This document shows, in pieces, positions 4,803 to 26,916 of a stretch of DNA of 34,925 bases (the first letter of the stretch is position 1; every line of letters starts with the position of its first letter). Position numbers and translations under genes: made by a program. The stretch is from an uncultured Holophagaceae bacterium. Its GTDB lineage: Bacteria > Acidobacteriota > Holophagae > Holophagales > Holophagaceae. The notes under the pieces were generated by a model. It was not told the DNA's origin and did no database searches. It was given only the letters and a program-made list of their open reading frames with translations. The stretch is taken from the NCBI GenBank assembly GCA_903857495.1, contig CAIOFF010000033.1, positions 1 to 34,925 on the forward strand, given 5' to 3'.

Positions 4803-4871
4803 CACTTTCTCCTTAATAGGACCTGAGGGTGGTAAATTGTGGCCCCTCATGAGTTGGAAATAGGAATCTCT

Positions 4872-6490: not shown

Positions 6491-6578
6491 GGGCAGGATC
6501 CTTGAGGCAGTGAGGCTCCAGGGTGGCACAGGGGGCCACGGCAGGCGTTCACCAGGGCCAACGAAAAAAATGAATTAA

Positions 6579-7946: not shown

Positions 7947-8195
7947 GCAACCTCCCGGGGCCCTCGGCCGAGGCAGGAGCGCACGGACCGCACCCCGAAG
8001 CCTACCGGCTTCGAACCTTGCCCTCAACGGAGCCGCTCCGCTGCACTCGGCTGCGACGATCCGAAATGCCCCTCGCCAAGGCCCCTGATCGCCTGTTAGG
8101 TTTTTTTTCATGCCCCTCCCCGCCGCGCCCCACCTCTCCGACCCTGCGAGGGCTGCCCGCGTCAACGGCGGGGTGGCTTCTGGAAGGAGCCCGGC

Positions 8196-9219: not shown

Positions 9220-10107
9220 ATGCTGACGTCCCGCACGGAGCAGCCCTACCCAGGCCATGAGCGGCTGGATGAGTATGGGACCCGAGAGCTGGTCGGGGCC
9301 TTTCTCGAGGACCAGGCCGCTGCGGCTGTGGCCGTGCAGAACTCCGCAGCCCAGCTCGCCCTGGCGGTGGACGGCGCGGTGCCGCGGCTCCAGGCCGGGG
9401 GCCGGCTCATCTACGTGGGTGCCGGGACCTCCGGGCGCCTGGGCCTGCTCGACAGCGTCGAGCTGAACCCGACCTTCTCCTGGCCTTCGGACCGGGCCTT
9501 GTCCCTGCTGGCCGGGGGGCCTGCCGCCCTCTACGCCGCCGTGGAGGGCGCCGAGGATGACCAGGACCGGGGCGCCCGGGACCTCGCAGAGTTGCAGCCG
9601 GGCCCGACCGATGTCGTGCTCCTGCTCGCGGCCTCCGGCGCCACGCCCTACACCCTGGGCGCCCTCGCGGCGGCCCGGGCCGCTGGGGCCTTCACCATCG
9701 GCATCGCCAACAACCCGGGCTCCCCCCTGGCCGCCGGCGCTGAGGTGGGCATCACCCTCGATACCGGCCCAGAGGTCATCTCGGGCAGTACCAGGCTCAA
9801 GGCGGGCACCTCCCAGAAGATCGCCCTGAACACCTTCTCCTCGGCGGTGATGGTCCGGCTCCACAAGGTCTTCGGCAACCTCATGGTCGATGTGCGGCCC
9901 ACCAACGCCAAGCTGGTCCGGCGCGCGGTCCGGCTCATCGGCCTGGCCACCGGCGCAGGCGAAGCTCGGGCGCAGGCGGCCTTCGAGGCCTGCGGCGGCC
10001 AGGTCAAGACCGCGATCGTCGCCGTGCTCAAGGCCCTCGGTCCGGACCAAGCGCGGGAGCGGCTGGCGGCGGTGCAGGGCAGCGTGCGCGCGGCGCTCCG
10101 GGACTGA
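9220..10107 (+). CDS. murQ: N-acetylmuramic acid 6-phosphate etherase (MurQ)
   Basis: MurQ of 295 residues (E. coli 298) cleaves the D-lactyl ether of MurNAc-6-phosphate to give GlcNAc-6-phosphate and D-lactate in the cytoplasm. The SIS signature GAGTSGRLG (67-75) is intact. The catalytic acid/base candidates are Glu81 (DSVELNPTF) and Glu112 in EGAEDD, matching the two essential Glu residues of E. coli MurQ. STRLKAGTSQK and the C-terminal helical domain are present. The start is the ATG at 9220 by alignment of the N-terminus (TEQ...LDEYGTRELV); an in-frame upstream start would add 18 residues with no family counterpart. It begins four bases after the NagB-II stop and ends one base before ampG, so translation is coupled. 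Confidence 0.95.
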   Translation: MLTSRTEQPYPGHERLDEYGTRELVGAFLEDQAAAAVAVQNSAAQLALAVDGAVPRLQAGGRLIYVGAGTSGRLGLLDSVELNPTFSWPSDRALSLLAGGPAALYAAVEGAEDDQDRGARDLAELQPGPTDVVLLLAASGATPYTLGALAAARAAGAFTIGIANNPGSPLAAGAEVGITLDTGPEVISGSTRLKAGTSQKIALNTFSSAVMVRLHKVFGNLMVDVRPTNAKLVRRAVRLIGLATGAGEARAQAAFEACGGQVKTAIVAVLKALGPDQARERLAAVQGSVRAALRD

Positions 10108-10108
10108 C

Positions 10109-11404
10109 GTGCCCGAGGAACCGCTCTCCCGCACCGCGAGGTGGACCGGCTCCCCCTGGGCCTGGGTTCCCTCGCTCTACTTCGGCCAGGGCCTCCCTTA
10201 CGTCACCGTCATGGTGCTGTCGGTGGTGTTCTACAAGAACCTCGGCGTGCCCAACACGGCCATCGCCCTCTACACCAGCTGGCTCTACCTGCCCTGGGTG
10301 ATCAAGCCCCTCTGGTCCCCGGTGGTGGACCTGCTGGGCACCAAGCGGTCCTGGGTCTACCTGCTCCAGGGTGTGGTGGGCGCGGCCTTCGCCCTGCTGG
10401 CGCTCACGGTGCCCGGATCGTCCTTCTTCCGGTACACGCTCGCCATGTTCTGGCTCATCGCCTTCGCGTCCGCCACCCACGACATCGCCGCGGACGGCTT
10501 CTACCTCCTGGCCCTGACCGAGCAGCGGCAGGCGGCCTTCGTGGGCCTGCGCAGCGCCTTCTACCGGGCCGCCATGATCGCGGGGCAGGGCGGGCTGGTG
10601 CTCATGGCGGGCAAGCTCGCGGAGCGCACCGGGGACCCGCGGCGGGCCTGGATGGCGGTGTTCGGACTCCTGGCGGCCCTCTTCCTCAGCCTCTTCGCCT
10701 GGCACCGCTTCATCCTGCCCCGCCCCGCCGTGGACAAGCCCGCGGAGGAGGGACTGGGCCTGTTCACGGGCTTCGTGGAGACCTTCCGCACCTTCTTCGC
10801 CCGCCGGGACCTGGCCCTCACCCTGGGCTTCCTGCTTACCTTCCGGCTGGGGGAAGCCCAGGCCATCAAGCTGGTGACGCCCTTCCTGCTGGATCCCGCC
10901 GCGAAGGGCGGCCTGGGCCTGAGCACCGCCCAGGTGGGCCTCGCCTACGGCACCGTCGGCATGCTCGCCCTCACCGCCGGCGGACTGGCCGGGGGCTTCA
11001 TGATCTCCCGCATGGGCCTCAAGCGGTGGCTGTGGCCCATGACCCTGGCCGTGCATCTGCCCAACCTGGCCTTCGTGCTGCTGGCCATCTTCCGGCCCAC
11101 GGGCTTGGCGACCATCGCCAGCGCCATCGCCTTTGAGCAGTTCGGCTACGGGTTCGGCTTCACGGCCTACATCATGTTCATGGTCATGATCGCGGATGGC
11201 GCCCACAAGACGGCCCACTACGCCATCGCCACGGGGTTCATGGCTCTGGGCATGATGCTTCCGGGCATGGCGAGCGGCTGGATCCAGGAGCGGCTGGGCT
11301 ACCTGAACTTCTTCATCTGGGTGTGCTGCGCGACGGTGCCGTCGATCCTCCTCACGGCCTTCCTGCGCATCGACCCCGCCTTCGGCCGCCGGGGCCCGGC
11401 ATGA
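10109..11404 (+). CDS. ampG: AmpG-like muropeptide/sugar permease (MFS)
   Basis: A 431-residue membrane protein with about 12 helices. The N-terminal stretch SLYFGQGLPYVTVMVLSVVFYKNLGV, then WLYLPWVIKPLWSPVVD and ASATHDIAADGFYLLAL, match the AmpG/Mtp muropeptide permease family of the major facilitator superfamily, which imports GlcNAc-anhydroMurNAc (peptides) through the inner membrane. The GTG at 10109 follows the murQ stop by one base, and the stop overlaps the next start (ATGA at 11401-11404). It sits between murQ and nagX, and both amidases of the cluster are exported lipoproteins, so the cargo here may be mainly peptide-free sugars. E. coli AmpG has 14 helices and is longer, so this is the shorter form. 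Confidence 0.88.
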   Translation: MPEEPLSRTARWTGSPWAWVPSLYFGQGLPYVTVMVLSVVFYKNLGVPNTAIALYTSWLYLPWVIKPLWSPVVDLLGTKRSWVYLLQGVVGAAFALLALTVPGSSFFRYTLAMFWLIAFASATHDIAADGFYLLALTEQRQAAFVGLRSAFYRAAMIAGQGGLVLMAGKLAERTGDPRRAWMAVFGLLAALFLSLFAWHRFILPRPAVDKPAEEGLGLFTGFVETFRTFFARRDLALTLGFLLTFRLGEAQAIKLVTPFLLDPAAKGGLGLSTAQVGLAYGTVGMLALTAGGLAGGFMISRMGLKRWLWPMTLAVHLPNLAFVLLAIFRPTGLATIASAIAFEQFGYGFGFTAYIMFMVMIADGAHKTAHYAIATGFMALGMMLPGMASGWIQERLGYLNFFIWVCCATVPSILLTAFLRIDPAFGRRGPA

Positions 11405-12543
11405 CTGGCCAGCGCCTCGGCTCCCTGGACGCCTTCCGCGGCTTCGCCATCGCGGGCATGGTGCTGGTGAACAATCCGGGCAGCTGGAAGGCGATTCACG
11501 GTCCCCTGGCCCATGCCCCCTGGAACGGCTGCACGTTCACGGACCTGATCTTCCCGTTCTTCCTCTTCGCGGCGGGGCTGGCCATGACCCTCTCCCTGAG
11601 CCGCCGGGCCCAGGAGACCGGCAGCCGCTTGGCGCTGTTCCGCACCCTGGCGCGCCGCGCGGCGGTGATCTTCCTGATCGGCCTGGCGCTCAACCTGATC
11701 CCCAGCTTCCAGCTGGCCACCCTGCGCATCCCCGGGGTGCTCCAGCGCATCGCCCTCACCATCCTGCTGGCGGCGCCTCTGGTCCTCTGGGGGCGCTGGC
11801 GAGCCGCCCTGGCGGGCATCTTCGGGTTCTGCGGACTCTACCTCATTCTGATGCTGCTGGTGCCGGTGCAAGGGGCGGACGGTGTCGTAGGCGCGGGCCG
11901 GCTGGCCCCGGGGCTGGACTTCGGTTCCTGGCTGGACCGGCTGCTGCTGGGCGGGCATCTGTGGGCCAGCGCCCGGACCTGGGATCCGGAGGGTCTGGTC
12001 AGCACCCTGCCGGCCACAGCCAGCCTGCTCTTCGGGGTCCTGGCGGGCTATTACCTCTGGGCGCCCCGCCAGCGGCTGCCCAAGGCCGCGGGCCTGCTGC
12101 TGGCGGGCCTGGCCCTCCTGGCGCTGGGGTGGGGCCTGGGCGTCGTGCTGCTGCCCATCAACAAGAACCTGTGGACCCCTTCCTACGCCGTGTTCACCGC
12201 CGGCTGGGCCCTGGTGTTCCTCGGCGCCTTCCATGCGGTGCTGGACGAGGCGAGTCCCGCGGTCACCCGGGTCGCGCGGCGCCTCTGCCTGCCGCTCACG
12301 ATCTACGGCATGAACGCGCTGGCCCTGTTCGTCCTGTCGGGGCTGGTCGGCCGGGTGCTGCAGGTGGTTCACGTGACGGGCCCCGCGGGCTCCATCACGC
12401 TCAAGGAGAGGCTGTTTCTGGCCCTGGCCACCCTGCCGCTGTCCCCGGCCAACGCCTCGCTGGCGTTCGCGGTGCTGTTCAACCTGGCCATCTTCGCGGT
12501 CGCCGTGGTGCTGTGGAGGAAGCAGTGGTTCATCAAGGCCTGA
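11401..12543 (+). CDS. nagX: NagX-like membrane acyltransferase (COG4299/DUF5009)
   Basis: A 380-residue polytopic membrane protein with about 10-11 helices and the family opening RLGSLDAFRGFAIAGMVLVNNPGSW, followed by WNGCTFTDLIFPFFLFAAG, which is diagnostic of the heparan-alpha-glucosaminide N-acetyltransferase-like/NagX family. Human HGSNAT carries an acetyl group across a membrane to a terminal glucosamine. Bacterial NagX genes sit in N-acetylglucosamine utilisation regulons, but their reaction is not settled. In this operon it could N-acetylate glucosamine or de-N-acetylated muropeptide sugars on the periplasmic face so that NagZ or the kinase can use them; that is my inference. The start overlaps the ampG stop by four bases, and its end overlaps the next gene by 19 bases. 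Confidence 0.82.
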   Translation: MTGQRLGSLDAFRGFAIAGMVLVNNPGSWKAIHGPLAHAPWNGCTFTDLIFPFFLFAAGLAMTLSLSRRAQETGSRLALFRTLARRAAVIFLIGLALNLIPSFQLATLRIPGVLQRIALTILLAAPLVLWGRWRAALAGIFGFCGLYLILMLLVPVQGADGVVGAGRLAPGLDFGSWLDRLLLGGHLWASARTWDPEGLVSTLPATASLLFGVLAGYYLWAPRQRLPKAAGLLLAGLALLALGWGLGVVLLPINKNLWTPSYAVFTAGWALVFLGAFHAVLDEASPAVTRVARRLCLPLTIYGMNALALFVLSGLVGRVLQVVHVTGPAGSITLKERLFLALATLPLSPANASLAFAVLFNLAIFAVAVVLWRKQWFIKA

Positions 12544-14066
12544 AGCGCCGCTTCGGCGCGCCCCTGCTGGCCCTGCTCGCGCTGATGGTCCTCGCGGGCT
12601 GCCTGAGGCCTACGCCGGGCACGCTGCCTGCCATTTCCGATACGCCGCCCCCGGCGCCGCGGGAGTTCCGTGCGGCCTGGGTGGCGACCGTAGCCAACAT
12701 CGACTGGCCCAGCAGCTCGAAACTGAGCACCGAGGCCCAGAAGGCCGAGGCCCGCGCCCTGGTGCAGCGGGCCCGCGAGCTGGGGCTCAACACCCTCATC
12801 CTGCAGGTCCGGCCCGCCGCCGACGCGCTGTACGCCTCGGCCCTGGAGCCCTGGTCCGAGGTCCTCACGGGCACCCAGGGCAAGCCGCCAGAGCCCTTCT
12901 ACGATCCGCTCTCCTTCTGGATCGAGGAGGCCCACCGCGCGGGCCTGGAGCTGCACGCCTGGTTCAACCCCTACCGAGCCCGCCATTCCACGGGCCGCTC
13001 GCCCCTGGCGCCCAGCCACCTGGCGAGCCAGCACCCAGAGCTGGTCCGGACCTACGGCGACCAGCTCTGGCTGGATCCCGCGGAGCCCGCCGCCGCCGAG
13101 CACGTGCTTGCGGTCATTCTCGACGTCGTGCGCCGCTACGAGGTGGACGGCGTGCACTTCGATGACTATTTCTACCCCTATCCCGTCAAGGACGCCGCGG
13201 GGCTGAAGGTCGACTTCCCGGATGAGTCGCCCTGGCAGGGCTACCTGGCCCGGGGCGGCACCCTCGCCCGCGCCGACTGGCGCCGGGAGCAGGTGGACCG
13301 CTTCGTCGAGCGCGTCTACCGGGAGGTCCACCGGGTGAAGCCCCAGGTCCGCGTGGGCGTGAGTCCCTTCGGCCTCGGCCGGCCGGACCGGCGGCCCCCA
13401 GGTGTCGCCGGGTTCAGCCAGTACGACGAGCTCTACGCCCACGCCGAGCGGTGGCTCGAGCAGGGCTGGCTGGACTACTTCGTGCCGCAGCTCTACTGGC
13501 GCACCGAGGCTCCGGAGCAGCCCTTCGGCCCGCTGCTGGATGGCTGGCGCGCCCAGAACCCCATGGGCCGACCGGTCTGGCCGGGACTCTTCACCAGCCG
13601 GCTGGGCGCCGCGGAGCCCTGGCCTGTCAGCGAGATCACGGGCCAGATCCAGCTCACGCGTCTCCGGCCGGGCAACCCGGGCCACGCCCACTTCAGCATG
13701 GTGGCGCTGAAGAAGGACTACGGCGGCATCGCGGGACCCCTCGCCGAGCTGTACGATGGCCCCGCCCTGGTGCCTGCGGCGGCGTGGCTGCCGGGCGCGG
13801 TGCCCGCTGCGCCCACGGTGCGGCTCCGGCGGGCTTCCGCCACGGCGCCGACGCTGCGCGTGGAGGGAACCCAGAGTCAGTCCAACCTGCTGCTGGCGGT
13901 CTGGGCCCGCTACGGCCGGAGCTGGCGCTTCTTCACCCTGCCCGGCGGCGTGGGCGAGCTCCCCGCCAGCTTCCAGGGCAGCCCGCTCGATCGGGCCTTT
14001 GCCTCCTCCGTGAGCCGCACCGGCCTGGAAAGTCCCCCCTCTCTGGTCACGGACGCGCGAAACTGA
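12525..14066 (+). CDS. DigH/YngK-like glycoside hydrolase lipoprotein (GHL10 family)
   Basis: A lipoprotein of 513 residues. The GTG at 12525 has GGAGGA five bases upstream and yields a lipoprotein signal ending in VLAGC (lipid Cys26). The gene then overlaps nagX by 19 bases. The body is the GHL10 (DUF187) TIM-barrel: REFRAAWVATVANIDWPS, LNTLILQVRPAADALYAS, LELHAWFNPYRA, VDGVHFDDYFYPYP (with the DD acid pair) and YFVPQLYWR. A beta-rich C-terminal domain follows from about residue 420. E. coli DigH (YddW) of this family is a lipoprotein that cuts denuded glycan strands left by amidases, which fits the amidase encoded two genes downstream. The role in murein glycan cleavage is therefore well supported by context but not proven. 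Confidence 0.87.
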   Translation: MVHQGLKRRFGAPLLALLALMVLAGCLRPTPGTLPAISDTPPPAPREFRAAWVATVANIDWPSSSKLSTEAQKAEARALVQRARELGLNTLILQVRPAADALYASALEPWSEVLTGTQGKPPEPFYDPLSFWIEEAHRAGLELHAWFNPYRARHSTGRSPLAPSHLASQHPELVRTYGDQLWLDPAEPAAAEHVLAVILDVVRRYEVDGVHFDDYFYPYPVKDAAGLKVDFPDESPWQGYLARGGTLARADWRREQVDRFVERVYREVHRVKPQVRVGVSPFGLGRPDRRPPGVAGFSQYDELYAHAERWLEQGWLDYFVPQLYWRTEAPEQPFGPLLDGWRAQNPMGRPVWPGLFTSRLGAAEPWPVSEITGQIQLTRLRPGNPGHAHFSMVALKKDYGGIAGPLAELYDGPALVPAAAWLPGAVPAAPTVRLRRASATAPTLRVEGTQSQSNLLLAVWARYGRSWRFFTLPGGVGELPASFQGSPLDRAFASSVSRTGLESPPSLVTDARN

Positions 14067-14082: not shown

Positions 14083-15039
14083 ATGCAGCAGGGCACTCCA
14101 GCACAGACCGGTCTCCTGGCCCTCGGCATCGATGCCGGCGGCACGGCGACCCGGTGGGCGCTGGCGAGCGCTGCGGAGGGCATCGTCGCCGAGGGCCAGG
14201 TCCCGGCCGTCAGTGCGTTGGACCTGAACGGACCGGGGCAGGCCGGGGTTGCGGCGACCCTGGAGTCCCTGGCCCAGGCGGTGCTGGCCGTGGGGCGTCC
14301 GGCCTGGGTCCACGCGGGCCTGACCGGCCTTGGCGCCAACAGCCACGTGCTGGTCCGCCTCCTTGCGATCCCGCTGGGGCTGCCTGACGCGGCCATCACC
14401 CTGAGCAGCGACATCGAGACCACCTACCTGGATCTCTTCGCTCCGGGGCAGGGCTACCTGGTCTATGCGGGCACGGGGTCGGTTGCCGCCTACCTCGACA
14501 GCGAAGGCGTGCTCCACCGCGCGGGTGGCCGCGGCGTACTCATCGACGACGGCGGCGGCGGCTACTGGATCGCCCGCGAGGGCCTGCGCCACGTCTGGCG
14601 GGCCGAGGATGAGCGCCCGGGCGCCTGGCACGGCTCGCCCCTGGCCGAGGAGCTGTTCGCCCTGGTGGGCGGCTCCGACTGGGCCCACACGCGGAAGCAC
14701 GTCTATGGTGGCAATCGCGGCGACATCGGCCGGCTGGCCCTGGCCGTGGCGCGGGCCGCGGACCGGGATCCCGCGGCCCGGAACATCCTGCGCGCAGCGG
14801 GCACGGAGCTGGCGCGGCTGGCCCAGACGATGATCAGCCGCTATGGCCCCCGCCCCGTGGCCCTGAGCGGCCGGGCCGCCACCCTGCACCCGCTCATCGC
14901 CGAGACCATGCAGGCCGCGCTGCCCGGCGGCACGGCCTTCGCCCTGCGCGCCAGCCAGGGCGAGCACGCCGCCGCGCGGCTCGCACTGGCCGCCCTGACG
15001 GGCACGCCCCGCCCCCTTCTCCAGGAGCTCGAGTCATGA
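14083..15039 (+). CDS. BadF/BadG-type sugar kinase (GlcNAc/MurNAc kinase, MurK-like)
   Basis: A 318-residue ASKHA-fold kinase. The ATP phosphate-1 loop is GIDAGGTATRW (15-25), phosphate-2 is AGTGSVA (130-136), and the adenosine/hinge stretch is GGRGVLIDDGGGGYWI (149-164). These belong to the BadF/BadG/BcrA family that includes N-acetylglucosamine kinase and Clostridium MurK, which phosphorylates both MurNAc and GlcNAc at O6. With murQ, ampG and nagB-II in the same operon, and no anmK or PTS gene here, this is the likely enzyme making MurNAc-6-P for MurQ and GlcNAc-6-P for deacetylation. Family membership is clear; the sugar preference is inferred. It starts 16 bases after the preceding stop and overlaps the amidase by four bases. 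Confidence 0.82.
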   Translation: MQQGTPAQTGLLALGIDAGGTATRWALASAAEGIVAEGQVPAVSALDLNGPGQAGVAATLESLAQAVLAVGRPAWVHAGLTGLGANSHVLVRLLAIPLGLPDAAITLSSDIETTYLDLFAPGQGYLVYAGTGSVAAYLDSEGVLHRAGGRGVLIDDGGGGYWIAREGLRHVWRAEDERPGAWHGSPLAEELFALVGGSDWAHTRKHVYGGNRGDIGRLALAVARAADRDPAARNILRAAGTELARLAQTMISRYGPRPVALSGRAATLHPLIAETMQAALPGGTAFALRASQGEHAAARLALAALTGTPRPLLQELES

Positions 15040-15827
15040 TCCGGATCTCTGCCTGCCTCCTGCTGGTGCTCGCTGCCCTGGGCTGCGTCCGCCAGCCGGC
15101 CATCGACCACAGCTACCGGGCCAAGAGCCAGGACAGCCGTGCCCAGTTCCTCATCCTGCACTTCACGGGCGGCACCTGGGAAGCCTCGGTGAAGATCCTC
15201 ACGGAGGGCCCGGTGAGCAGCCACTACCTGGTGCGCGACAGCCCCGTGCAGGTCTATCAGCTGGTGGACGAGAGCCAGCGGGCCTACCACGCCGGGCGCA
15301 GCTCCTGGCAGGGGCAGACCCAGCTCAATGCCGCCTCCATCGGCATCGAGATCCAGAACGCGGGGGACATCCAGGGCCCCGACGGGATCATCTACCATGA
15401 CTACCCCAAGGCGCAGATCGACGCCGTGATCGCCCTGGTCAAGGACATCGTCGCCCGGCATCAGATCCGGCCCGACCGCATCCTCGGCCACAGCGACATC
15501 GCGCCCACCCGCAAGGTGGACCCGGGCCCGACCTTCCCCTGGAAGCGGCTAGCCGACGAGGGCCTCATCCCCTGGCCCGAGGCCACAGCCGTGGCCGAGC
15601 GGCGGGTGCGCCACGAGGCCAGCCTGCCGGAGGTCACCTGGTTCCAGACGAAGCTGGTCGAGCACGGCTTCGCGCTGGCGGTCACCGGCACCCTGGATCC
15701 CACGACCCGGCAGGTCCTGGCCAACTTCCAGATGAAGTACCGCCCCGCGCGCTACGACGGCCTGCCCGACGCCGAGACCGCGGCGCTCCTCGACGTCCTG
15801 ACCACGCCAGCCGGGAAGGCCCGCTAG
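15036..15827 (+). CDS. amiD: N-acetylmuramoyl-L-alanine amidase lipoprotein with PG-binding domain (AmiD-like)
   Basis: A 263-residue lipoprotein. The signal ends in LAALGC (Cys17), and Gln/Arg rather than Asp follow the Cys, compatible with outer-membrane sorting. The Amidase_2 zinc site is visible: His42 (FLILHFT), His152 in GHSDIAPTRKVDPG and Asp162. A PG_binding_1 type three-helix domain occupies about residues 200-255 (FQTKLVEHG...LANFQMKY). This is the AmiD architecture, which removes stem peptides from MurNAc or anhydroMurNAc outside the cytoplasm. The sequence after the lipobox (YRAKSQDSRAQFLILHFT) closely follows AmiD. It is the last gene of the plus operon and its ATG overlaps the kinase stop. 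Confidence 0.92.
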   Translation: MIRISACLLLVLAALGCVRQPAIDHSYRAKSQDSRAQFLILHFTGGTWEASVKILTEGPVSSHYLVRDSPVQVYQLVDESQRAYHAGRSSWQGQTQLNAASIGIEIQNAGDIQGPDGIIYHDYPKAQIDAVIALVKDIVARHQIRPDRILGHSDIAPTRKVDPGPTFPWKRLADEGLIPWPEATAVAERRVRHEASLPEVTWFQTKLVEHGFALAVTGTLDPTTRQVLANFQMKYRPARYDGLPDAETAALLDVLTTPAGKAR

Positions 15828-15877: not shown

Positions 15878-15915
15878 TCACCTGGTTTCCCGCACCGTTC
15901 CCTCGGGGGGTGCTC

Positions 15916-17130
15916 ATGCGATGGATGGACAAGGCTCTGGCAGCGGGTGGGCGGGTGCCGCTGAGGCTCCGCCGGCTGGTGCTCACTTCGGCCACCTCGG
16001 CGCTGCTGGCCCTGAGCGCCTTTGCCCAGTCGGTCGTCGCCCCTCCCGCGGCGCCCCCGCTCCGGGTGGCGACCTTCGACTCCGGCTTCGGTGGCTACCT
16101 CACCGCCAAGAGCATCGAGGTCACGGCGGCCTCCCTGCTGCAGCACTACGACACCACCATCACCATCCGCCACTACGGGGACACCAAGAACCTGCCTTAC
16201 GGCGAGAAGACGCCGGGCCAGATCGCCACCCTCGGGAGCGCCGGGGTGCTGCGGGCCTTCGAGCAGGGGGCGGACATGGTCTTCATCGCCTGCAACACGG
16301 CCTCGACCCAGTACGACCGCATCCGGCAGGCTGTGGATGCGGCCTATCCCGGCCAGATGAAGCCCGTGGTCTCGATCATCGATGCCTCCGCGAAGGAGGC
16401 CAAGCGGCTCCTGGACCAGAGCCTCGCCCAGCGGTCCACCGCGACCTTCCTGATCATGGCCACACCGGCCACGGTCAGGGCCATGGTCTACCCGCGGCAG
16501 CTGGCCCGGCTCTACGCCGCGCCCCTGGTGGAGGAGGCGCCCCGGGCTTTCACGCAGCCCCGCTGGTACACGGCCAACGGACCCACCATCGACAGCCTGA
16601 TCCAGAAGAGCGCCATCACCCTGCCGGGAGGGCGCCACATCGAGGTGATCCAGCTGGCCCCGGCGAACTGGGTTGAGCTCATCGAGCACGGCGCCGATGC
16701 GAAGCTCAAGCGGGAGGCGGTCCGCCGGGACCTGGGCCTGCTGGCGAAGCAGCTTCCGAAGGCCGCCCCGGATGTGGTGGGCTACTTCTGCACGCATTAC
16801 CCCATCTTCGATGACACGATCCGGGCCGAGGTGGCCCTGCAGCTGCCGACGCCCCGTCCGCCGACCTACATCTCCCAGGGCCAGCTCATGGCCCGGATCT
16901 TCCAGGGCATGGCCGAGGAGCGCCTGCAGGGCCGCCAGCGCAAGGTGCCCCTCGCGGCCGGGCAGCTCCAGGCACTCCTCGGCAGCGCCCGGGCGAACAT
17001 CACCATCAGCGGCCAGAACGGCCCGGTCACCCGGCAGCTGGCCCAGACCATGTTCCCGAACGATCCCGCGCCCGTCGTGACCGAAGAAGACCTCGGCAGC
17101 CTGTCACCGGCCGCCCCGGCACCCCGGTAG
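15916..17130 (+). CDS. Exported glutamate racemase homologue (Asp/Glu racemase family)
   Basis: A 404-residue protein. Residues from about 49 onward follow glutamate racemase MurI: TFDSGFGG (Asp55-Ser56), the first catalytic Cys126 in FIACNTAST and the second, Cys292, in YFCTHYPIF. Both catalytic thiols are present, so racemisation of D-Glu and L-Glu is expected. Unlike MurI it carries an N-terminal export signal: a basic stretch (PLRLRR), a hydrophobic core and a signal-peptidase site AFA-QS (about residue 37), then a Pro/Ala linker. About 100 residues beyond the usual MurI length are shared between this leader and a C-terminal extension. I start at ATG 15916 (GGGGGG five bases upstream); a GTG at 15910 is in frame. 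It stands between the sugar operon and the stem-peptide operon, which suggests catabolic rather than biosynthetic use. Confidence 0.85.
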   Translation: MRWMDKALAAGGRVPLRLRRLVLTSATSALLALSAFAQSVVAPPAAPPLRVATFDSGFGGYLTAKSIEVTAASLLQHYDTTITIRHYGDTKNLPYGEKTPGQIATLGSAGVLRAFEQGADMVFIACNTASTQYDRIRQAVDAAYPGQMKPVVSIIDASAKEAKRLLDQSLAQRSTATFLIMATPATVRAMVYPRQLARLYAAPLVEEAPRAFTQPRWYTANGPTIDSLIQKSAITLPGGRHIEVIQLAPANWVELIEHGADAKLKREAVRRDLGLLAKQLPKAAPDVVGYFCTHYPIFDDTIRAEVALQLPTPRPPTYISQGQLMARIFQGMAEERLQGRQRKVPLAAGQLQALLGSARANITISGQNGPVTRQLAQTMFPNDPAPVVTEEDLGSLSPAAPAPR

Positions 17131-17312: not shown

Positions 17313-18455
17313 TCAGTGGCCATGGCTCGCCTGGAGGCGGGCGCTGAACCAGGTCCAGATGGCCTTGTTGAAGGCCAGGCTGGGCGGGGTGCCCGCGAGA
17401 ATCTCGTAGTAGCTGGTGGGGGTGTCCCCGGGCTTCTGCCGGGTGCGCAGCTCCGGATCAAACAGCTGGTAGTGCTCGGGGTGGAACTGGACGCCGAGCA
17501 CATTGGGGAACTGCTGGTGCTCGATGGCCTCCGCCACCTTGCCGTCCCGGGAGGTGGCGATGGTGACCCAGCCGCGGCCCAGCTTGCCCAGCGCCTGGTG
17601 GTGCGAGCTCAGCACCCGGGGGTGGTCCGTGGCCTTGAAGCCCAGCTCCTTCGTGAGCTTGCTGGGGCCCTTCAGCTGGAGCGAGTGGAAGTTGTAGGAC
17701 ATCAGTCGGTCCAGGGGCTGCAGGCGCTTGTAGGGGTTGTTGTGCCACTGCTCGGCGCCCAAGGCGACCATGTCCTCGAAGCTCTGCTTGCCGTAGATCT
17801 CCGTGCGGATGTCCTGGATCAGGGTGCCGCCGGTGCCGACGTTCAGGCTCTGGAAGCCGAGGCAGATGCCCAGCACGGGGAAGCCGGGCCGGGCCGCGAG
17901 GAGGGCCTTGCTGCTACTGTCCTGGCTACCGCCAAGGAAGTGGAAGATGGCGGAGAGCTCCAGGTAGTTCCGGTAGGGGTCCTCCACCTCGGAGAGCAGG
18001 TGGGTCTTCTGGTGGAAGATGGACGCGGGGATGTCCGAGCCGCCGAAGAAGATGACCCCGTCGGCCTTTGCCAGGATGGCTTCGAACTCGGGGGTGCAGG
18101 CATTCCGCTTGAAGAGGACGGGCTCGCTGAGCTCCGCCGTGACCGCGTGGAACTTGAGCCAGCCGTAGCCGTGCTCCGTGGTGTAAGTCTTCGCGGCCTC
18201 AAAGTTCTCGGTCTGCCGGTCGTGGAAGACCCCGACGATGGTGAGGCCCGAGACCTCGAGGAGGCCCTTCTCCCGCAGCGCTGCAAGGCAGCGGATGTTG
18301 TGGACCGTAGGATTGAACACCACCAGCCGGATGCCGTCCCCCTGGGGGCGCGGCGCATCCAGGAACCGCTCCAGGTTGCGGGCGGACAGGGACAAGCCAA
18401 GGGCCAGCCCGAGGACGATCCCCAACAGGCGGTGCAGCAAGGTTCCAACGCGCAT
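17313..18455 (-). CDS. Exported class I glutamine amidotransferase-like hydrolase (peptidase C26 type)
   Basis: A 380-residue protein. The N-terminus (RLLGIVLGLALGLSLSA, about 9-25) is a Sec signal or anchor. The rest is a class I GATase/peptidase C26 fold with the full triad: nucleophile Cys198 in GICLGFQSLN, and His325 and Glu327 in GVQFHPEH. No partner synthetase domain is attached, so it should act as a hydrolase. C26 enzymes cut gamma-glutamyl bonds (PuuD-like, gamma-glutamyl hydrolase). In this operon with an NlpC/P60 gamma-D-Glu-DAP endopeptidase and an Ala-Glu epimerase, a gamma-glutamyl bond in murein peptides is an attractive substrate, but that is inference. An N-terminal extension of about 110 residues before IFFGG is longer than in PuuD. 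It is the last gene of the operon, 20 bases after the epimerase. Confidence 0.78.
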   Translation of the reverse strand: MRVGTLLHRLLGIVLGLALGLSLSARNLERFLDAPRPQGDGIRLVVFNPTVHNIRCLAALREKGLLEVSGLTIVGVFHDRQTENFEAAKTYTTEHGYGWLKFHAVTAELSEPVLFKRNACTPEFEAILAKADGVIFFGGSDIPASIFHQKTHLLSEVEDPYRNYLELSAIFHFLGGSQDSSSKALLAARPGFPVLGICLGFQSLNVGTGGTLIQDIRTEIYGKQSFEDMVALGAEQWHNNPYKRLQPLDRLMSYNFHSLQLKGPSKLTKELGFKATDHPRVLSSHHQALGKLGRGWVTIATSRDGKVAEAIEHQQFPNVLGVQFHPEHYQLFDPELRTRQKPGDTPTSYYEILAGTPPSLAFNKAIWTWFSARLQASHGH

Positions 18456-18475: not shown

Positions 18476-19615
18476 TCAGTTCTTCGCGTCCGGCACGGGG
18501 CGGAGGCCGAGGCCCGGGGCGTCCGTGAGGATGAGCTTGCCCTTCTGGACCGTGACGCCCTGGTAGGGGTCGTTGGCGATCAGCAGGTGGCCGTCCAGGT
18601 CGGCGTAGTCAACCAGCGGTGAGAGATGGGCCGCGGCGGTGACCGTGCACGAGCTCGACACCATGCAGCCGAGCATGACCTTCATGCCCAGGGCCCGGGC
18701 CACGTGGATCTGGCGCTGGGCCTCGATGAGGCCGCCGGACTTGTCGAGCTTCACCACGATGCCGTCAAAGGCCTCGCGCAGCTTCGGAATGTCCTCGGCA
18801 GAGTGGCAGGCCTCGTCCGCGAAGATGGGGATGTGCACGCGGCTGCGGATCCAGCGGGTCTCCTCGACCAGGTGCGCGGGCAGGGGCTGCTCGATGAGCT
18901 CCACCCCCTGGGACTCCAGCCAGTTGATCTTGCGGGCGGCTTCTTCCTTGCTGGTCCAGCCCTCATTGGCGTCCACGCGCAGGGTCTTCTTCGTGACGCT
19001 GCGCACGGCGTCGATCGTGGCCTCGTCCGTGGCCAGGCCGACCTTCACCTTGAGGACGGGGAAGTCCTCGGCTTCGCGGACCTTCTGGCGCGTAATCTCT
19101 GGCGTGTCGATGCCGATGGACATGTTGGTGACGGCCGTGTCCTTGGGATCCAGGCCGAAGAGGCGATAGACCGGCACGCCCAGGCGCTTGCCCAGCCAGT
19201 CCAGGAGGGCTAGGTCCACGGCAGCCAGCGCCGCGCGCTGGCCCGGCAGGCGCCGGTCGAGGTCCTTCAGCAGCTTCTCGTAGCTGTAGGGATCCGCCGA
19301 CGCGATGAGCGGCAGCAGCGCCTCCAGGGCCTTCTGGCCGCCGAGGGCGCTCTGCTGGTAGCGGACGATGCCCGCTCCCTCGCCGTAGCCCGTGATCCCG
19401 TCCCGGTCGTACTGGGTGTGCAGGGTGTCCCGGGTGGCACTCGAGGACATGGTGGTGGTCCAGGTGTGCCGCAGCTCCAGCCGCCGGATGCGGGTGGTGA
19501 AGGTTGCGCCCTTCTGCGGCGCGGGGCTGGCAGACCCGTCGAAGACCTCCCTGCCCATGAGGTTGACGCCGACGGCAGTTGCCGCCATGGCCTGGAACAG
19601 TTCCCGCCGCTTCAT
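18476..19615 (-). CDS. L-Ala-D/L-Glu dipeptide epimerase with Tat-type signal (enolase superfamily)
   Basis: A 379-residue enolase-superfamily enzyme with the muconate-lactonising-enzyme layout. Catalytic Lys189/Lys191 are in LKVKVG; metal ligands are Asp215 (RVDANEGW), Glu242 (IEQPLP) and Asp267 (DEACHS); the opposite-face Lys289 is in KLDKSGG. The C-terminal DLDGH pair (Asp339, Asp341) is the specificity signature of Ala-Glu epimerases such as YkfB and YcjG. It converts L-Ala-D-Glu to L-Ala-L-Glu for ordinary peptidases. The N-terminus KRRELFQAMAATAVGV is a twin-arginine leader, so the enzyme should be exported folded, whereas YkfB/YcjG are cytoplasmic. Its ATG overlaps the NlpC/P60 stop by four bases (ATGA). 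Confidence 0.92.
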   Translation of the reverse strand: MKRRELFQAMAATAVGVNLMGREVFDGSASPAPQKGATFTTRIRRLELRHTWTTTMSSSATRDTLHTQYDRDGITGYGEGAGIVRYQQSALGGQKALEALLPLIASADPYSYEKLLKDLDRRLPGQRAALAAVDLALLDWLGKRLGVPVYRLFGLDPKDTAVTNMSIGIDTPEITRQKVREAEDFPVLKVKVGLATDEATIDAVRSVTKKTLRVDANEGWTSKEEAARKINWLESQGVELIEQPLPAHLVEETRWIRSRVHIPIFADEACHSAEDIPKLREAFDGIVVKLDKSGGLIEAQRQIHVARALGMKVMLGCMVSSSCTVTAAAHLSPLVDYADLDGHLLIANDPYQGVTVQKGKLILTDAPGLGLRPVPDAKN

Positions 19616-20505
19616 TTAAGCCTCCGCATGGCCACCAGGAGCTTGGACCAGGTAGGGTCGCTCAGCTGGGAAATCTGGATCACGGGTCGGTCCTTGGGTG
19701 TGTCGTGGATGAACAGGTCCTGACCCAGGATCATCCCGGTGTGGGTGATGTGGGCGGCGTCTTTGCCGAAAAACAGCAGGTCCCCGGGCTGGAGCAGCGC
19801 CCGGTCGCTGACGGCGGCCAGGCCGGACCACTCCGCCTGGAGGTTGGCGTCCCGGGGCAGGATGACGCCGCGGGTGCGGAAGATCGCCTGGGTGAAGCCG
19901 GAGCAGTCAAAGCCGAAGGTGGAGCTGCCGCCCCAGGTGTAGGTGATCCCGAGGAAGCGCCTGGCCAGGGTCAGGGAGGCCTCGAGGCTCAGGGGCCGGA
20001 GGTCCGTGCGCACATCGCCGCTCTGGATCCAGGCCACGCGGCGGTCCGGCAGTCGCACCTCGATCCAGCGCTGCGTGTCCCGGCCGCCGTTGAGGCGCTC
20101 GAGGCGCACGCCGAAGGGCGCGGTGAGGACCGGCGCGTGCTTGGTGACGTCGGGTTCCTGATAGAGATTCGCGGCGAGGGCGTCCACCTCCACGGCCTTG
20201 CCCGGTTCCAGGGAGGCCGGATAGCGCTCGGTGCCCGCCAGGGGCCGGAGGGCCGCCAGGGGGGCCCAGCCGGGGTAGTCGTCATCGCCCTTGACGCGGA
20301 CCCAGCCCTCCTTGCGCTCGAGCTCCACCAGCCGGGCGCTCAGGGTCGCCTGGGTGACCACATCGCTGTCCTCCCGGGGGGCCGAGAAGAAGTTGATGAC
20401 GGGCCTCAGGACCACATGGGCCGCGGGCTCGCTGGTCCAGCCCGTGACCGCGGCGAGCGCGGACAGCAGACAGGCCAGCAGGCTGCGGGGCAGGACAGGG
20501 CTCAT
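19612..20505 (-). CDS. Exported NlpC/P60 endopeptidase with SH3b domains (YkfC-like)
   Basis: The protein has 297 residues. A signal peptide (about 1-25, LLACLLSALAAVTG) is followed by two SH3b-like domains (about 30-88 and 105-168) and a C-terminal NlpC/P60 cysteine peptidase domain with Cys201 (GFDCSGF), His255 (HTGMIL) and His267 (FIHDTP). The TYTWGG motif before the Cys is typical of YkfC, which cuts gamma-D-Glu-(meso)DAP in free peptides bearing N-terminal L-Ala. The product L-Ala-D-Glu is the substrate of the epimerase encoded immediately downstream with overlapping codons, so the pairing is functional as well as genetic. The serine hydrolase gene lies 51 bases upstream on the same strand. 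Confidence 0.92.
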   Translation of the reverse strand: MSPVLPRSLLACLLSALAAVTGWTSEPAAHVVLRPVINFFSAPREDSDVVTQATLSARLVELERKEGWVRVKGDDDYPGWAPLAALRPLAGTERYPASLEPGKAVEVDALAANLYQEPDVTKHAPVLTAPFGVRLERLNGGRDTQRWIEVRLPDRRVAWIQSGDVRTDLRPLSLEASLTLARRFLGITYTWGGSSTFGFDCSGFTQAIFRTRGVILPRDANLQAEWSGLAAVSDRALLQPGDLLFFGKDAAHITHTGMILGQDLFIHDTPKDRPVIQISQLSDPTWSKLLVAMRRLK

Positions 20506-20556
20506 CGGGAAACCTCACGCACCCAGTTCGAGTGAGTGGTCATCTTCGCAGATGGC

Positions 20557-21501
20557 TCAGGGGATCAGAAGGGGACGGAGCAGCCGCCCCTCGGGCGAGG
20601 TGGCGCCGGCGGCATCGAAGCAGGCGGCGGCGCGCAGGGCGATGCGGGCGATGGCGGCCTCGCCCTGCCGCTCATCCCGGAGGTGCGAGGTCATGACGGC
20701 GATCACGAAGCTCTGGCCCCGCAGCGTGAGGAGGCCGACGTCGTTCCGGACCCCGGGCAGGCTCCCGGGCTTGTTGGCGACGGTGAGCTCTTCCGGCAGG
20801 AGGCGGGTCAGGTAGCCCTCCTTGGGGGTTCTCAGGAGGCCCAGCAGGTCCGCCCGGGAGGCGGGGTTCAGCAGGGGGCCCTGGTGGATCGCCCCGAGGA
20901 GCTCGGCCAGCTCCCGGGGCGTGGCGTGGTTCTCCCGGCCTTCCTTCACGGCCTGGAGGTCCATCATCTTCCGGCGCAGGCGGGTCTTCTGCAGGCCGAG
21001 TCCCTCGAGGGTGGCATTCACCCGCGCCATGCCCACGCGGTCCATGAGGAGGTTGGAGGCACTGTTGTCGCTGACAACGATGGTGAACAGGGCCAGGTCC
21101 CGGTTGGTGAGCCGGGTGCCCGCGCTCAGGTTGCCGAGGAGGGCGCTGTCCGCCGCGAGGTCCCCGGGCTGCACCAGGTAGGCGTCCCCGAGGCCTGCCT
21201 GACCCGGTCCGCCTTGCGCCTGTCGGTAGAGCTCCAGCAGGATGGCGAGCTTGATGGTGCTGGCGGCGGGGAAGACCTCGTCGCCGCGCAGGGAGAAGGC
21301 GGCGCCAGTCTCGAGGTCCCGGACGTAGACACCCACCCGGCCATCGACTTCATGGGCCAGTCGGGTGATGTCCTCGGTCATGCGCGTCCAGAGCAGCGGC
21401 TGCGTCTGCGCCAGGGAGGCCGGCCGGGGCGCTTCGGGCACCTGCGCCGACAGGCCCAGCGTGGCGGCGGCCAGGAGGCAGGCCCTCATCATTTTCAGCA
21501 T
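20557..21501 (-). CDS. Class A beta-lactamase-like serine hydrolase, lacking the canonical omega-loop Glu
   Basis: The protein has 314 residues starting at ATG 21501, with GGGGAG just upstream and a signal peptide (MMRACLLAAATLGLSA-Q). An in-frame start further upstream would place 14 residues before this signal. The penicillin-binding fold motifs are S81-T-I-K84, S144-D-N146 and a KPG triad at 244-246 (KTG in classical enzymes). Anchoring on TRL..R, the residue at the place of Ambler Glu166 is Met179, and the region continues as GRENHATP, the signature of the PF13354 branch that lacks beta-lactamase deacylation. It is more likely a D,D-peptidase or esterase on murein peptides than a resistance enzyme. 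First gene of the minus operon, divergent from alr. Confidence 0.83.
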   Translation of the reverse strand: MLKMMRACLLAAATLGLSAQVPEAPRPASLAQTQPLLWTRMTEDITRLAHEVDGRVGVYVRDLETGAAFSLRGDEVFPAASTIKLAILLELYRQAQGGPGQAGLGDAYLVQPGDLAADSALLGNLSAGTRLTNRDLALFTIVVSDNSASNLLMDRVGMARVNATLEGLGLQKTRLRRKMMDLQAVKEGRENHATPRELAELLGAIHQGPLLNPASRADLLGLLRTPKEGYLTRLLPEELTVANKPGSLPGVRNDVGLLTLRGQSFVIAVMTSHLRDERQGEAAIARIALRAAACFDAAGATSPEGRLLRPLLIP

Positions 21502-21645
21502 CGGCACTCCCCGGAAGCCGCCCCGGACGGCTCGGAGGGGCACTGGCTATCATCGTCACCCCATCCCCGCACCGGAAGCCCTCATTCCGCCGTGGAGCCC
21601 TGGATTGCCCCTTCGGTCGTGGGGGGATTCCGCTAGGCTCTTGTC

Positions 21646-22791
21646 ATGTCCTTCGACAGCACCCCACGGGATTCCGCCTCCCATTTGCCTCCGTCTGGGC
21701 GCACGCTGACGGCGCATGTGGACCTCGGGCAGCTGGTGCGGAACCATACCAGCCTCCGGCGCGCGGCACCGGGCCTGGGCCTCCTCGCGGTGGTGAAGGC
21801 GGACGCCTATGGCCACGGCGCAGGTCCGGTCGCCCGCGCCCTCGAGGCCTCGGGCATCGACGGCTTCTGTGTGGCCACCCTGGATGAGGCCCTCGAGCTC
21901 CGGGCGGCGGGCCTGCGCGGACCGATCCTCGTGTTCGAGGGCGAGGCTCCCGAGGCGCTGCCCGTGGCCGCCGCGAATGCCATCGACCTCACGGTGGTCT
22001 CGGCGGAGCACCTGGCGGCCCTGGCCCCCGGCCTCAAGCAGCACGACGTGGGCCTGCACCTCAAGCTGGACACGGGCATGGGGCGGTCGGGCATCCTCCT
22101 CGACGAGCTGGGCGGCTGCCTGGATCAGATCCGCGCCCTGCAGGATCGGGTCCGGGGGGTGATGAGCCAATTCTCGGCCTCCGAGGAGCCCGAGGCCCTG
22201 AGCGTTCGGCGCCAGCGGCAGCGGTTCCAGGGGGCCCTGGCCCAGCTGCGGGAGGCGGGGATCGTGGCGCCCATGGTCCACCATGGCAACAGCGCCGCCT
22301 GCCTCCGGGGCTTTTCGGAGGGCGACACCCACGCCCGCTGCGGCATCGCGCTGTATGGGCTCTCGGAGGTCGACGAGGCCCAGCAGGCGGGCCTTCGGCC
22401 GATCCTCGAGCTCTCGGCGGAGGTCACCCGCTCGGTCCTCATCCCCGCAGGGACTCCGGTGGGGTATGGGAGTTCCTTCCTGGCGCCCCGGGCCCTGCGG
22501 CTCGTGACCCTCAACTGCGGCTATGCGGACGGCTTCTCCCGCGCCCTGGCCAACCGCGCCTGGGTGGGCTACCGGGGCGAGAGCTTCCCCGTCGTGGGCA
22601 ACCTCTCCATGGACATGCTGACCGTGGCGCTGCCCGAGGAAGTGGTGGTCCGCACCGGCGAGCGCATGACCCTGCTGAGCCGGAACCCGCTGGACCCGAA
22701 CTCGGTCCAGAACACCGCCAGGCTGCTGGGCACGATCCCCTACGAAGTCACCTGCGCCCTGAACCGGCGGGTCCTCCGCCACCACTTCTGA
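21646..22791 (+). CDS. alr: Alanine racemase
   Basis: A fold-type III PLP racemase of 381 residues. The PLP lysine is in VVKADAYGHG (about residue 51), and HLKLDTGMGRSGI, HHGNSAAC, CGIALYG and CGYADGFSR follow in family order. The usual MSH motif reads MSQF here and the usual GYADGY reads GYADGF, so the second catalytic Tyr should be examined. It interconverts L- and D-alanine. There is no signal peptide, so unlike its cluster neighbours it looks cytoplasmic. The ATG at 21646 has no Shine-Dalgarno, and TAGGCT sits six bases before it, so a leaderless transcript is possible. It heads an operon with the VanX fusion 14 bases downstream, suggesting that it processes D-Ala released from murein, although it might also serve biosynthesis. 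Confidence 0.88.
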   Translation: MSFDSTPRDSASHLPPSGRTLTAHVDLGQLVRNHTSLRRAAPGLGLLAVVKADAYGHGAGPVARALEASGIDGFCVATLDEALELRAAGLRGPILVFEGEAPEALPVAAANAIDLTVVSAEHLAALAPGLKQHDVGLHLKLDTGMGRSGILLDELGGCLDQIRALQDRVRGVMSQFSASEEPEALSVRRQRQRFQGALAQLREAGIVAPMVHHGNSAACLRGFSEGDTHARCGIALYGLSEVDEAQQAGLRPILELSAEVTRSVLIPAGTPVGYGSSFLAPRALRLVTLNCGYADGFSRALANRAWVGYRGESFPVVGNLSMDMLTVALPEEVVVRTGERMTLLSRNPLDPNSVQNTARLLGTIPYEVTCALNRRVLRHHF

Positions 22792-22805: not shown

Positions 22806-24224
22806 ATGCTGAAGCCTGTCCTCAAGAGCCTGCTCCTTGCGGTGGCCCTGGCCGCCCAGGCTCAGAGCCCGAAGCCCCAGGCGCCGCCGGTGCCCGCCCT
22901 GAGCGTGCTGATCGCCGAAGCGCGGAAGGCCGTGCCCCCCGCGCTGCCCCCCAGCCGGCTGGCGCCGGACCTGGTGGACGTCACGGCCCTCGACCCCTCG
23001 ATCCAGCTGGACATCCGCTACGCCACCTCGGACAACTTCCTGCACGCGCCGGTCTACGGCCAGGCCAAGGCCTTCCTCCAGCGCCCCGTGGCCCAGGCCC
23101 TGGTGCGGGTGAACGCGGCCCTCAGGCGCTCCTCGGGCTATGCGCTGCGCATCCACGATGGCTACCGGCCCTGGTGGGTCACCAAGGTCTTCTGGGACGC
23201 CACGCCAGCCGCGGACCACGACTACGTGGCCGATCCCGCTAAGGGCTCCGTGCACAACCGGGGCTGCGCCGTGGACCTGGACCTGGTGGACCTCGCCTCC
23301 GGTGCCCCGGCCACCATGCCCAGCGGCTACGACGAGATGTCCGAGCGCTCCCACGCCGCCTACCCTGGCGGCGACGCCGCCGCCCGCGCCCACCGGGACC
23401 TGCTCCGGGCCGCCATGGAAGCCCAGGGCTTCAAGGTGCTCAAGGAGGAGTGGTGGCACTTCGACCATGCCTCCAGTGCCGACTATCCGGTCATGAACCT
23501 CACCTTCGAAGCCCTCCGCGACCGCTCCGCCGAGCTCGCCCAGAGCGGGCAGGTGCTCCTGGTGACCACCTCTGGCTGGGATACGGCCAAGGGCAGCCTG
23601 CAGCGCTTCGAGCGCCAGCAGGGGACCTTCAAGGCCGTGGGGGCGCCGCTGCCCGTGTGGGTCGGCAAGGGCGGCCTGGCCTGGCGCACGGACGATGGCG
23701 CGCCGCCGCCTCCGGCGGGTGGCCCGATGAAGCGCGAAGGGGATGGCCGCGCCCCTGCGGGGCTCCTGACCTTCGGCGACATGTGGGGCTACGCGCCCAC
23801 CGCCCCTGAGGGCGTCCGCTTCCGCTACCGCATGGCCACCGAGTGCGAGCGCTGCGTGGACGACCCGGACCACGCCGACTATGCGCGCATCGTCAGCCTG
23901 CCGAGCCCCAAGGCCCCCGTGACCTTCCGGTCCGCTGAGTATCTGCTCCTGCCCACGGAGCACTACCGCCACATGGTGATCATCCACTACAACGACCTGC
24001 GTCCCCTCAAGGGCGCGGGCAGCTGCATCTTCCTGCACGTAGCGCCGCCACCGGGCGGGGGCACCGCCGGGTGCACGGCCCTGGCCGCGGAGGACCTGCT
24101 CACGCTGCTGCGGTGGATGGATCCGGCCAAGAGCCCCGTACTGCTGCAGGTCCCTGAGGCCCTGCTCGAGACGACCCGCGCCACCTGGAGCCTGCCCGCC
24201 GAGCTCAAGCCGGTCGGACGCTGA
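22806..24224 (+). CDS. Exported fusion of VanX-type D-Ala-D-Ala dipeptidase and YkuD/ErfK-type L,D-transpeptidase-like domain
   Basis: A protein of 472 residues in two enzymes. After a signal peptide (LKSLLLAVALAAQA-Q), residues about 50-225 form an M15D D,D-dipeptidase with zinc ligands His150 and Asp157 in SVHNRGCAVDLDL, the catalytic Glu215 and ligand His218 in EEWWHFDH. VanX/DdpX cut free D-Ala-D-Ala. Residues about 280-465 form an L,D-transpeptidase-like domain of the COG3786 type: VGKGGLAW, KREGDGRAPAGLL, then His411 and the catalytic Cys423 in IFLHVAPPPGGGTAGCTAL. The second domain may cleave (carboxypeptidase) or exchange bonds next to DAP. The whole protein could attack the D-Ala and DAP end of stem peptides. 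I know the two domains separately but not as a standard fusion. Located between alr and the DAP decarboxylase. Confidence 0.85.
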   Translation: MLKPVLKSLLLAVALAAQAQSPKPQAPPVPALSVLIAEARKAVPPALPPSRLAPDLVDVTALDPSIQLDIRYATSDNFLHAPVYGQAKAFLQRPVAQALVRVNAALRRSSGYALRIHDGYRPWWVTKVFWDATPAADHDYVADPAKGSVHNRGCAVDLDLVDLASGAPATMPSGYDEMSERSHAAYPGGDAAARAHRDLLRAAMEAQGFKVLKEEWWHFDHASSADYPVMNLTFEALRDRSAELAQSGQVLLVTTSGWDTAKGSLQRFERQQGTFKAVGAPLPVWVGKGGLAWRTDDGAPPPPAGGPMKREGDGRAPAGLLTFGDMWGYAPTAPEGVRFRYRMATECERCVDDPDHADYARIVSLPSPKAPVTFRSAEYLLLPTEHYRHMVIIHYNDLRPLKGAGSCIFLHVAPPPGGGTAGCTALAAEDLLTLLRWMDPAKSPVLLQVPEALLETTRATWSLPAELKPVGR

Positions 24225-24268
24225 TCCGCACTCTTCCCATGATGTCCACACCCTGCCAGGAGTTTCCC

Positions 24269-26451: not shown

Positions 26452-26916
26452 TCAGGCCAGCGGTCCCCGGGTCTTGCGGTAGAGCCACTCGGACTGGTCT
26501 TGCACCACGTAGTCCTTGAGCTCGCCGATGCAGGTGTAGCCCAGGCGCTCGTAGAGGCGGCGGGCGGCGGGGTTGAAGCCGGACACGCAGAGGAACACGT
26601 TCGGGTGCTCGCGGAAGATCCGGTCTTCCGTGAAGGCGATGAGCCGGGAGCCGAGCCCCTGGCCGCGGAAGGTCGGGGCGAGGCAGATCGCCTGGAGGTA
26701 GCCGACGAAGGCGCCCCGCAGGTTGAGGACCAGGACGCCGGCCAGCTGGTCGCCGAGGTGGGCCACGTAGGTCTCCCGGTCCGGATCCCGCAGCAGGCGC
26801 AGGCAGGTGGCCCGGTCCCGCCGCAGGGTCAGCCAGGGCTCGGACGCGGCCATGAGCTCCGCGCAGGCTTCGAGCTCAGCCTCGCTGGCGGGGGGATCGA
26901 TGCGGAGCTCGCTCAC
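26452..26916 (-). CDS. GNAT-family N-acetyltransferase
   Basis: A 154-residue GNAT-fold enzyme. The acetyl-CoA pyrophosphate loop is visible as APTFRGQGLGSRLI (motif A, Q/R-G-x-G), followed by RRLYERLGYTCIG (motif B). The start is GTG 26916, overlapping the serine hydrolase stop (GTGA) with AAGGAAAG upstream. The substrate is unknown. Coupling to a penicillin-binding-like hydrolase suggests an amino acid, amino sugar or peptide amine acceptor, as for other GNATs near murein genes. No signal peptide, therefore cytoplasmic. Confidence 0.82.
   Translation of the reverse strand: MSELRIDPPASEAELEACAELMAASEPWLTLRRDRATCLRLLRDPDRETYVAHLGDQLAGVLVLNLRGAFVGYLQAICLAPTFRGQGLGSRLIAFTEDRIFREHPNVFLCVSGFNPAARRLYERLGYTCIGELKDYVVQDQSEWLYRKTRGPLA

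Follow-up and report, generated by a model that had tools for sequence, protein, structure and literature searches.

A predicted exported glutamate racemase homologue within a peptidoglycan-utilisation gene cluster of Holophagaceae

We identified a MurI-type glutamate racemase homologue with an export-type leader, here called MurIx, inside a gene cluster for peptidoglycan utilisation in an uncultured Holophagaceae bacterium; the window (the whole stretch of DNA that we analysed) spans 34,925 nucleotides. We consider it fairly likely that MurIx is a catabolic, periplasmic, cofactor-independent two-cysteine glutamate racemase, which in this soil or sediment bacterium of the Geothrix group would probably turn the D-Glu of dead bacteria into usable L-Glu outside the cytoplasm. 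Glutamate racemase is usually regarded as a cytoplasmic enzyme of wall synthesis and a drug target. If our reading is true, scavenging by a conserved exported clade would mean a glutamate racemase that works with cysteine thiolates outside the cytoplasm, and MurIx would be a testable genetic marker for bacterial feeding on cell-wall remains.

A MurI-Type Racemase with a Leader

The MurIx gene is an intact ORF whose translation starts MRWMDKALAAGGRVPLRLRRLVLTSATSALLALSAFAQ; its orthologues have the same ATG (15916), and a GTG is also in frame at 15910.

15916..17130, plus strand: MurIx, MurI-type glutamate racemase homologue with export-type leader, 404 aa
Landmarks in MurIx (residues): leader ~1-38; DSG 55-57; Cys126; insert ~200-245; Cys292

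MurIx matches PF01177 (Asp/Glu/hydantoin racemase superfamily) at 36.8 bits, above the Pfam gathering cut-off of 31, and the two-domain fold of this family, with one catalytic Cys per half, is borne out. With the NCBIfam glutamate racemase model TIGR00067 (EC 5.1.1.3) it scores 72.8 bits (2.7e-20), about half the equivalog cut-off of 146.65 bits, which leaves it outside the equivalog proper; the motifs DSG, CNTAS, and CTHYP expected of that family are all present. An AlphaFold2 model built from ten family members (mean pLDDT 86.4, pTM 0.82) aligns with Listeria MurI over 262 residues at Z 29.6 and matches glutamate racemases in Foldseek at 2.9e-16. Every top match is a glutamate racemase, and aspartate racemases score clearly lower (Z 17.9). 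Homology to glutamate racemase, as proposed in the earlier note, is therefore far above chance by both profile and fold. Pfam and fold alike give the MurI type and not the alanine-racemase fold with its PLP lysine. In a phylogenetic tree, ten MurIx sequences group together on a long branch, separate from canonical MurI (support 98/98); MurIx is thus its own variant within the known MurI kind, set apart as a separate clade.

The catalytic Cys126 (CNTAS) and Cys292 (CTH) and the DSG motif, which had been read from this single sequence, are invariant in the alignment of every complete relative, distant ones included (relative L038 is truncated by its contig and stops just past the second Cys motif). 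The corresponding bases of Bacillus subtilis glutamate racemase are Cys-74 and Cys-185 (PMC8142540). From DSG onward, 9 of 10 MurIx members contain the catalytic pair as their only cysteines and one contains 3, compared with 2-6 in canonical MurI (n = 9 sequences); such scarcity fits a life beyond the reducing cytoplasm, without proving it. The extra C-terminal sequence ascribed to MurIx earlier comes down to a short tail: most of the added length lies in the leader (~45 aa) and in an internal insert (~45 aa, about residues 200-245). This insert follows the ATPATV segment and is absent from canonical MurI, and beyond it the canonical PLLVPLVEEG reads PANWVELIEHG in MurIx.

Enzymes of the TIGR00067 type are cytoplasmic and leaderless; MurIx differs in that all its complete relatives carry a predicted leader. 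In the window this leader has a net positive charge, a 13-residue mean hydropathy of 1.97, and a putative AFA-Q cleavage site. A hydrophobic N-terminal leader preceded by net positive charge recurs in 10/10 members examined; these leaders are moderately hydrophobic (13-residue mean 1.7-2.6), some orthologues have no clear A-x-A site, and one (G770, locus L060) has a lipoprotein-like leader. Among the Geothrix orthologues, dN/dS is about 0.3-1.0 in the leader versus 0.06-0.26 in the mature part which, judged by these ratios, is under strong purifying selection. The leader recognised in the earlier note is a real feature of the family, carried by all relatives despite sequence drift, and a candidate Sec signal peptide; we infer that MurIx is exported from the cytoplasm.

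The Gene Cluster Around MurIx

The earlier description of MurIx as lying next to murein hydrolases was right and understated the case, in that the gene sits within a whole peptidoglycan-utilisation cluster with the following members.

1827..4850, minus strand: outer-membrane protein with carboxypeptidase-regulatory domain; cluster-linked in other genera too
4994..6529, minus strand: sodium:solute symporter; cluster-linked in other genera too
6933..8435, minus strand: glycoside hydrolase family 3 (GH3) domain, NagZ-type suspected; true start inside the ORF
8196..9215, plus strand: double SIS-domain protein, amino-sugar isomerase/deaminase type
9220..10107, plus strand: MurQ, N-acetylmuramic acid 6-phosphate etherase; above NCBIfam subfamily cut-offs, leaderless
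9890..11404, plus strand: AmpG-family MFS muropeptide transporter; true start downstream of 9890
11323..12543, plus strand: NagX/HGSNAT-like membrane acyltransferase; true start uncertain, probably 11401
11961..14066, plus strand: glycosyl hydrolase-like 10 (GHL10) protein; true start uncertain
14083..15039, plus strand: BadF/NagK-like amino-sugar kinase; leaderless
15036..15827, plus strand: AmpD-family N-acetylmuramoyl-L-alanine amidase with peptidoglycan-binding domain; lipoprotein leader LAALGC
17313..18455, minus strand: class C26 protein (gamma-glutamyl hydrolase type), predicted exported; GICLG nucleophile motif intact
18476..19615, minus strand: enolase-superfamily epimerase, DgcA / L-Ala-D/L-Glu epimerase type; conserved Tat-like leader [KN]RREL[FL]Q
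19612..20505, minus strand: NlpC/P60 endopeptidase with SH3 domains, predicted exported
20557..21543, minus strand: class A beta-lactamase-like serine hydrolase, predicted exported; 45% identical to the fused domain of L037 (below)
21646..22791, plus strand: alanine racemase; TIGR00492 above cut-off, leaderless
22806..24224, plus strand: M15 D-Ala-D-Ala dipeptidase, predicted exported
24239..25645, plus strand: diaminopimelate decarboxylase; TIGR01048 446 bits, conserved export leader
25648..26421, plus strand: second AmpD-family amidase; lipoprotein leader
26913..28034, minus strand: AmpH/PBP4B-like serine hydrolase, predicted exported

Leaders are conserved among the orthologues of the peptide-processing enzymes, namely both amidases, C26, the epimerase (Tat-like), NlpC/P60, M15, and diaminopimelate decarboxylase, and are missing from the sugar enzymes MurQ and the kinase and from alanine racemase, which serve as an internal control for the comparison. 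The best NCBIfam model for the epimerase is the N-acetyl-D-Glu racemase DgcA, at 219.9 bits and thus below its cut-off of 400. The diaminopimelate decarboxylase of the cluster lies far above the LysA cut-off, whereas a leaderless homologue elsewhere in the genome (contig C35) is weaker and falls below it. We rejected the ORF at 20536-21636 (+) as a conserved new gene, since it mirrors the serine hydrolase gene, which lies on the minus strand; in a window this rich in GC, spurious ORFs of that sort are frequent.

Gene order in the cluster is conserved across the family genomes that have MurIx. Taking M15 as the cluster marker, we find the cluster in 17/93 genomes of the class and MurIx in 12/93 (11 intact, one remnant), all 12 of them among the 17 marker genomes (hypergeometric 1.5e-11, uncorrected for relatedness). 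Five genomes have the cluster without MurIx, and in two of these loci (L079 and L083) C26 directly follows the amidase, an empty MurIx site. In G009 (L015/L056) the cluster is intact and only a remnant of MurIx persists (L056:9749-10147, minus strand). MurIx is thus dispensable, an optional addition to the pathway in Geothrix and relatives and not part of its core, as expected if most D-Glu is dealt with by the epimerase while still in dipeptide form. Strict coupling of MurIx to C26 was rejected, given that G026, G030, and G035 have no C26 in the interval from MurIx to the epimerase; C26 also occurs in clusters that have no MurIx.

Canonical murI and Distribution

A leaderless, canonical murI, the second copy whose existence the earlier note had left to be checked, lies elsewhere in the same genome (G000; 3.7 Mb, 98.5% complete): at C46:19644-20288 an ORF of 274 aa scores 202.7 bits with TIGR00067. 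This separate copy rules out MurIx as the genome's only murI, the circumstance that would have spoken against a role away from wall synthesis. Ten other Holophagaceae carrying MurIx have a canonical murI above the cut-off as well, and G030 has a fragment only. We found no canonical murI in three MurIx-bearing MAGs from outside the family, G101, G102, and G104 (L038, L039, and L042; completeness not given), and MurIx may have a biosynthetic role there. A search of these MAGs for D-amino acid transaminase, as another source of wall D-Glu, gave only matches below cut-off.

Outside its class, MurIx occurs in a gammaproteobacterial MAG, another proteobacterial MAG, Bdellovibrionales, and Kiritimatiellae, and also in Geobacteraceae plus a second genome of that phylum. 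In wider draws of genomes, each a sample, it was present in 3/247 of its own phylum and then in 1/241, 2/297, and 1/289; by this count MurIx is rare, turning up sporadically in several phyla, each time with a predicted leader. A phage or mobile origin was rejected: the scan of viral contigs gave no MurIx relative, and plasmid matches are just 23-31% identical, the one examined, from Runella, being a 255-aa racemase-family gene with no peptidoglycan setting.

Two of the distant relatives have contexts of their own. In the gammaproteobacterial MAG, a single gene (L037:9902-12019) joins MurIx with a serine hydrolase domain of the class A beta-lactamase-like type. This domain shares 45% identity (247 bits) with the hydrolase at 20557-21543 of the window, well ahead of its best solved structure (82 bits) and its best plasmid match (126 bits). 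An exported PF10023 aminopeptidase adjoins the fusion. In the Geobacteraceae MAG (L040:4784-8484), an exported asparaginase, MurIx, and an exported D-glutamate cyclase stand in a row. The last is a relative of mammalian DGLUCY (PF14336), a different enzyme from MurIx, and the substrate of the mammalian cyclase is D-Glu (PMC5339696); no D-glutamate cyclase was seen among the annotated genes of the window. Both contexts point to free Glu outside the cytoplasm, and that of L040 to D-Glu in particular.

Proposed Role and Alternatives

From sequence and gene context we infer export, racemase activity, a free Glu substrate, and a net direction, the last, D to L, because the setting of the cluster is degradative. 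Exported amidases, endopeptidases, and serine and gamma-glutamyl hydrolases would dismantle peptidoglycan stem peptides in the periplasm, freeing some D-Glu as the amino acid. At Cys126 and Cys292, on opposite faces, the alpha-proton would be removed and given back, and MurIx would draw the Glu pool to L-Glu for import as carbon and nitrogen; the exported Ala-Glu type epimerase, complemented by MurIx, would handle D-Glu still within the dipeptide. Of the two roles offered in the earlier note, catabolism or periplasmic editing of D-amino acids, we favour the former over wall editing because the genes around MurIx together serve degradation, with an AmpG-like permease, MurQ, a sugar kinase, amidases, NlpC/P60, an epimerase, a D-Ala-D-Ala dipeptidase, and diaminopimelate decarboxylase, and because this set is syntenic wherever the family has MurIx. 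Weighing on the other side, free D-Glu may be a minor product, given the exported epimerase; thiolate catalysis by MurIx would have to survive outside the cytoplasm; and the ~45-residue insert could alter the substrate. A broader scheme, which we put forward tentatively as possible and somewhat short of probable, is that some Acidobacteriota carry out all stereochemistry and decarboxylation of peptidoglycan peptides outside the cytoplasm, before uptake. Amidases, an epimerase, glutamate racemase, a dipeptidase, and diaminopimelate decarboxylase, all of them exported, would then convert the D-Glu and diaminopimelate of foreign walls to L-Glu and L-Lys, and uptake would mainly be of ordinary L-amino acids and sugars.

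The insert also bears on whether MurIx might share the fold but act, as an exported racemase or epimerase, on another substrate: a different acidic amino acid (Asp), or a peptide that is gamma-glutamyl or contains Glu. The segment ahead of PANWVELIEHG would then reshape the mouth of the active site. The score below the equivalog cut-off, the separate clade on its long branch, and the exported asparaginase (products Asp or Glu) beside one relative agree with such a shift; PF01177 and TIGR00067 are nevertheless the best families, the fold ranks glutamate above aspartate racemases (Z 29.6 vs 17.9), and the D-glutamate cyclase neighbour in L040 speaks for Glu, so that we regard another substrate as unlikely. 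Racemases being reversible, MurIx could instead make extracellular D-Glu for wall editing, for signalling, or for a product such as 5-oxo-D-proline or poly-gamma-glutamate, and the same cyclase in L040 could be read in this way, as could the periplasmic broad-spectrum racemase of Pseudomonas putida, which goes with D-Lys in the medium (PMC6034422). We think this highly unlikely in view of the degradative Geothrix cluster, which has no linked wall-synthesis or transpeptidase gene apart from a YkuD match, below threshold, within the M15 protein.

Two further readings would take MurIx out of periplasmic catalysis altogether. The moderate hydrophobicity of the leaders and the lack of a clear A-x-A site in some orthologues would suit an uncleaved anchor holding an ordinary second MurI on the cytoplasmic side of the membrane; positive charge ahead of the hydrophobic segment in all ten members, the lipoprotein-like leader of G770, the depletion of cysteines, and the leaders on neighbouring proteins all argue otherwise and make the anchor very improbable. 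That MurIx is a non-catalytic binding protein or a decaying paralogue is the least credible alternative, recalling the remnant in the one Geothrix genome (G009) and facing catalytic motifs that are invariant across divergent hosts, together with strong purifying selection.

Relation to Known Systems

The closest homologues of the putative periplasmic glutamate racemase are MurI/RacE, which share its fold over 262 residues, its DSG, CNTAS, and CTH motifs, and its two catalytic cysteines; MurIx departs from them in its export-type leader, its ~45-residue insert, an identity of about 20-26% in structural alignments, and its place in a degradative cluster in addition to canonical MurI. P. putida Alr and Vibrio cholerae BsrV resemble MurIx, as predicted, in being racemases that work outside the cytoplasm. 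Both are PLP-dependent, have the alanine-racemase fold, and are not homologous to the MurI type, whose enzymes need no cofactor. The periplasmic racemase of P. putida, an enzyme unrelated to MurIx, serves amino acid catabolism (PMC6034422).

The cluster also recalls AmpG-NagZ-MurQ recycling, uniting an AmpG-like permease, a GH3 protein, MurQ, a kinase, AmpD-type amidases, and an Ala-Glu-type epimerase. Escherichia coli keeps AmpD, the epimerase, and the later steps of peptidoglycan recycling in the cytoplasm, whereas the cluster's amidases, epimerase, NlpC/P60, dipeptidase, and diaminopimelate decarboxylase bear export leaders. With regard to DgcN/DgcA D-glutamate catabolism, the cluster epimerase is closest to DgcA, yet is below the cut-off and has a leader. 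We found no description of an exported glutamate racemase or an exported diaminopimelate decarboxylase in the open-access literature, most subscription journals lying outside that search.

A second, distant exported MurI-like type occurs in G026, G030, and G086 (L048:5867-7093, L049:6093-7259, and L050:216-1280, minus strand), with the motifs VTDSGLGG, ACNTLS, and CCTHYG; the scan of viral contigs gave no relative of this type either. In L049 its flanking genes are two of the N-formylglutamate amidohydrolase family and one for a PGA_cap protein, a setting that hints at poly-gamma-glutamate.
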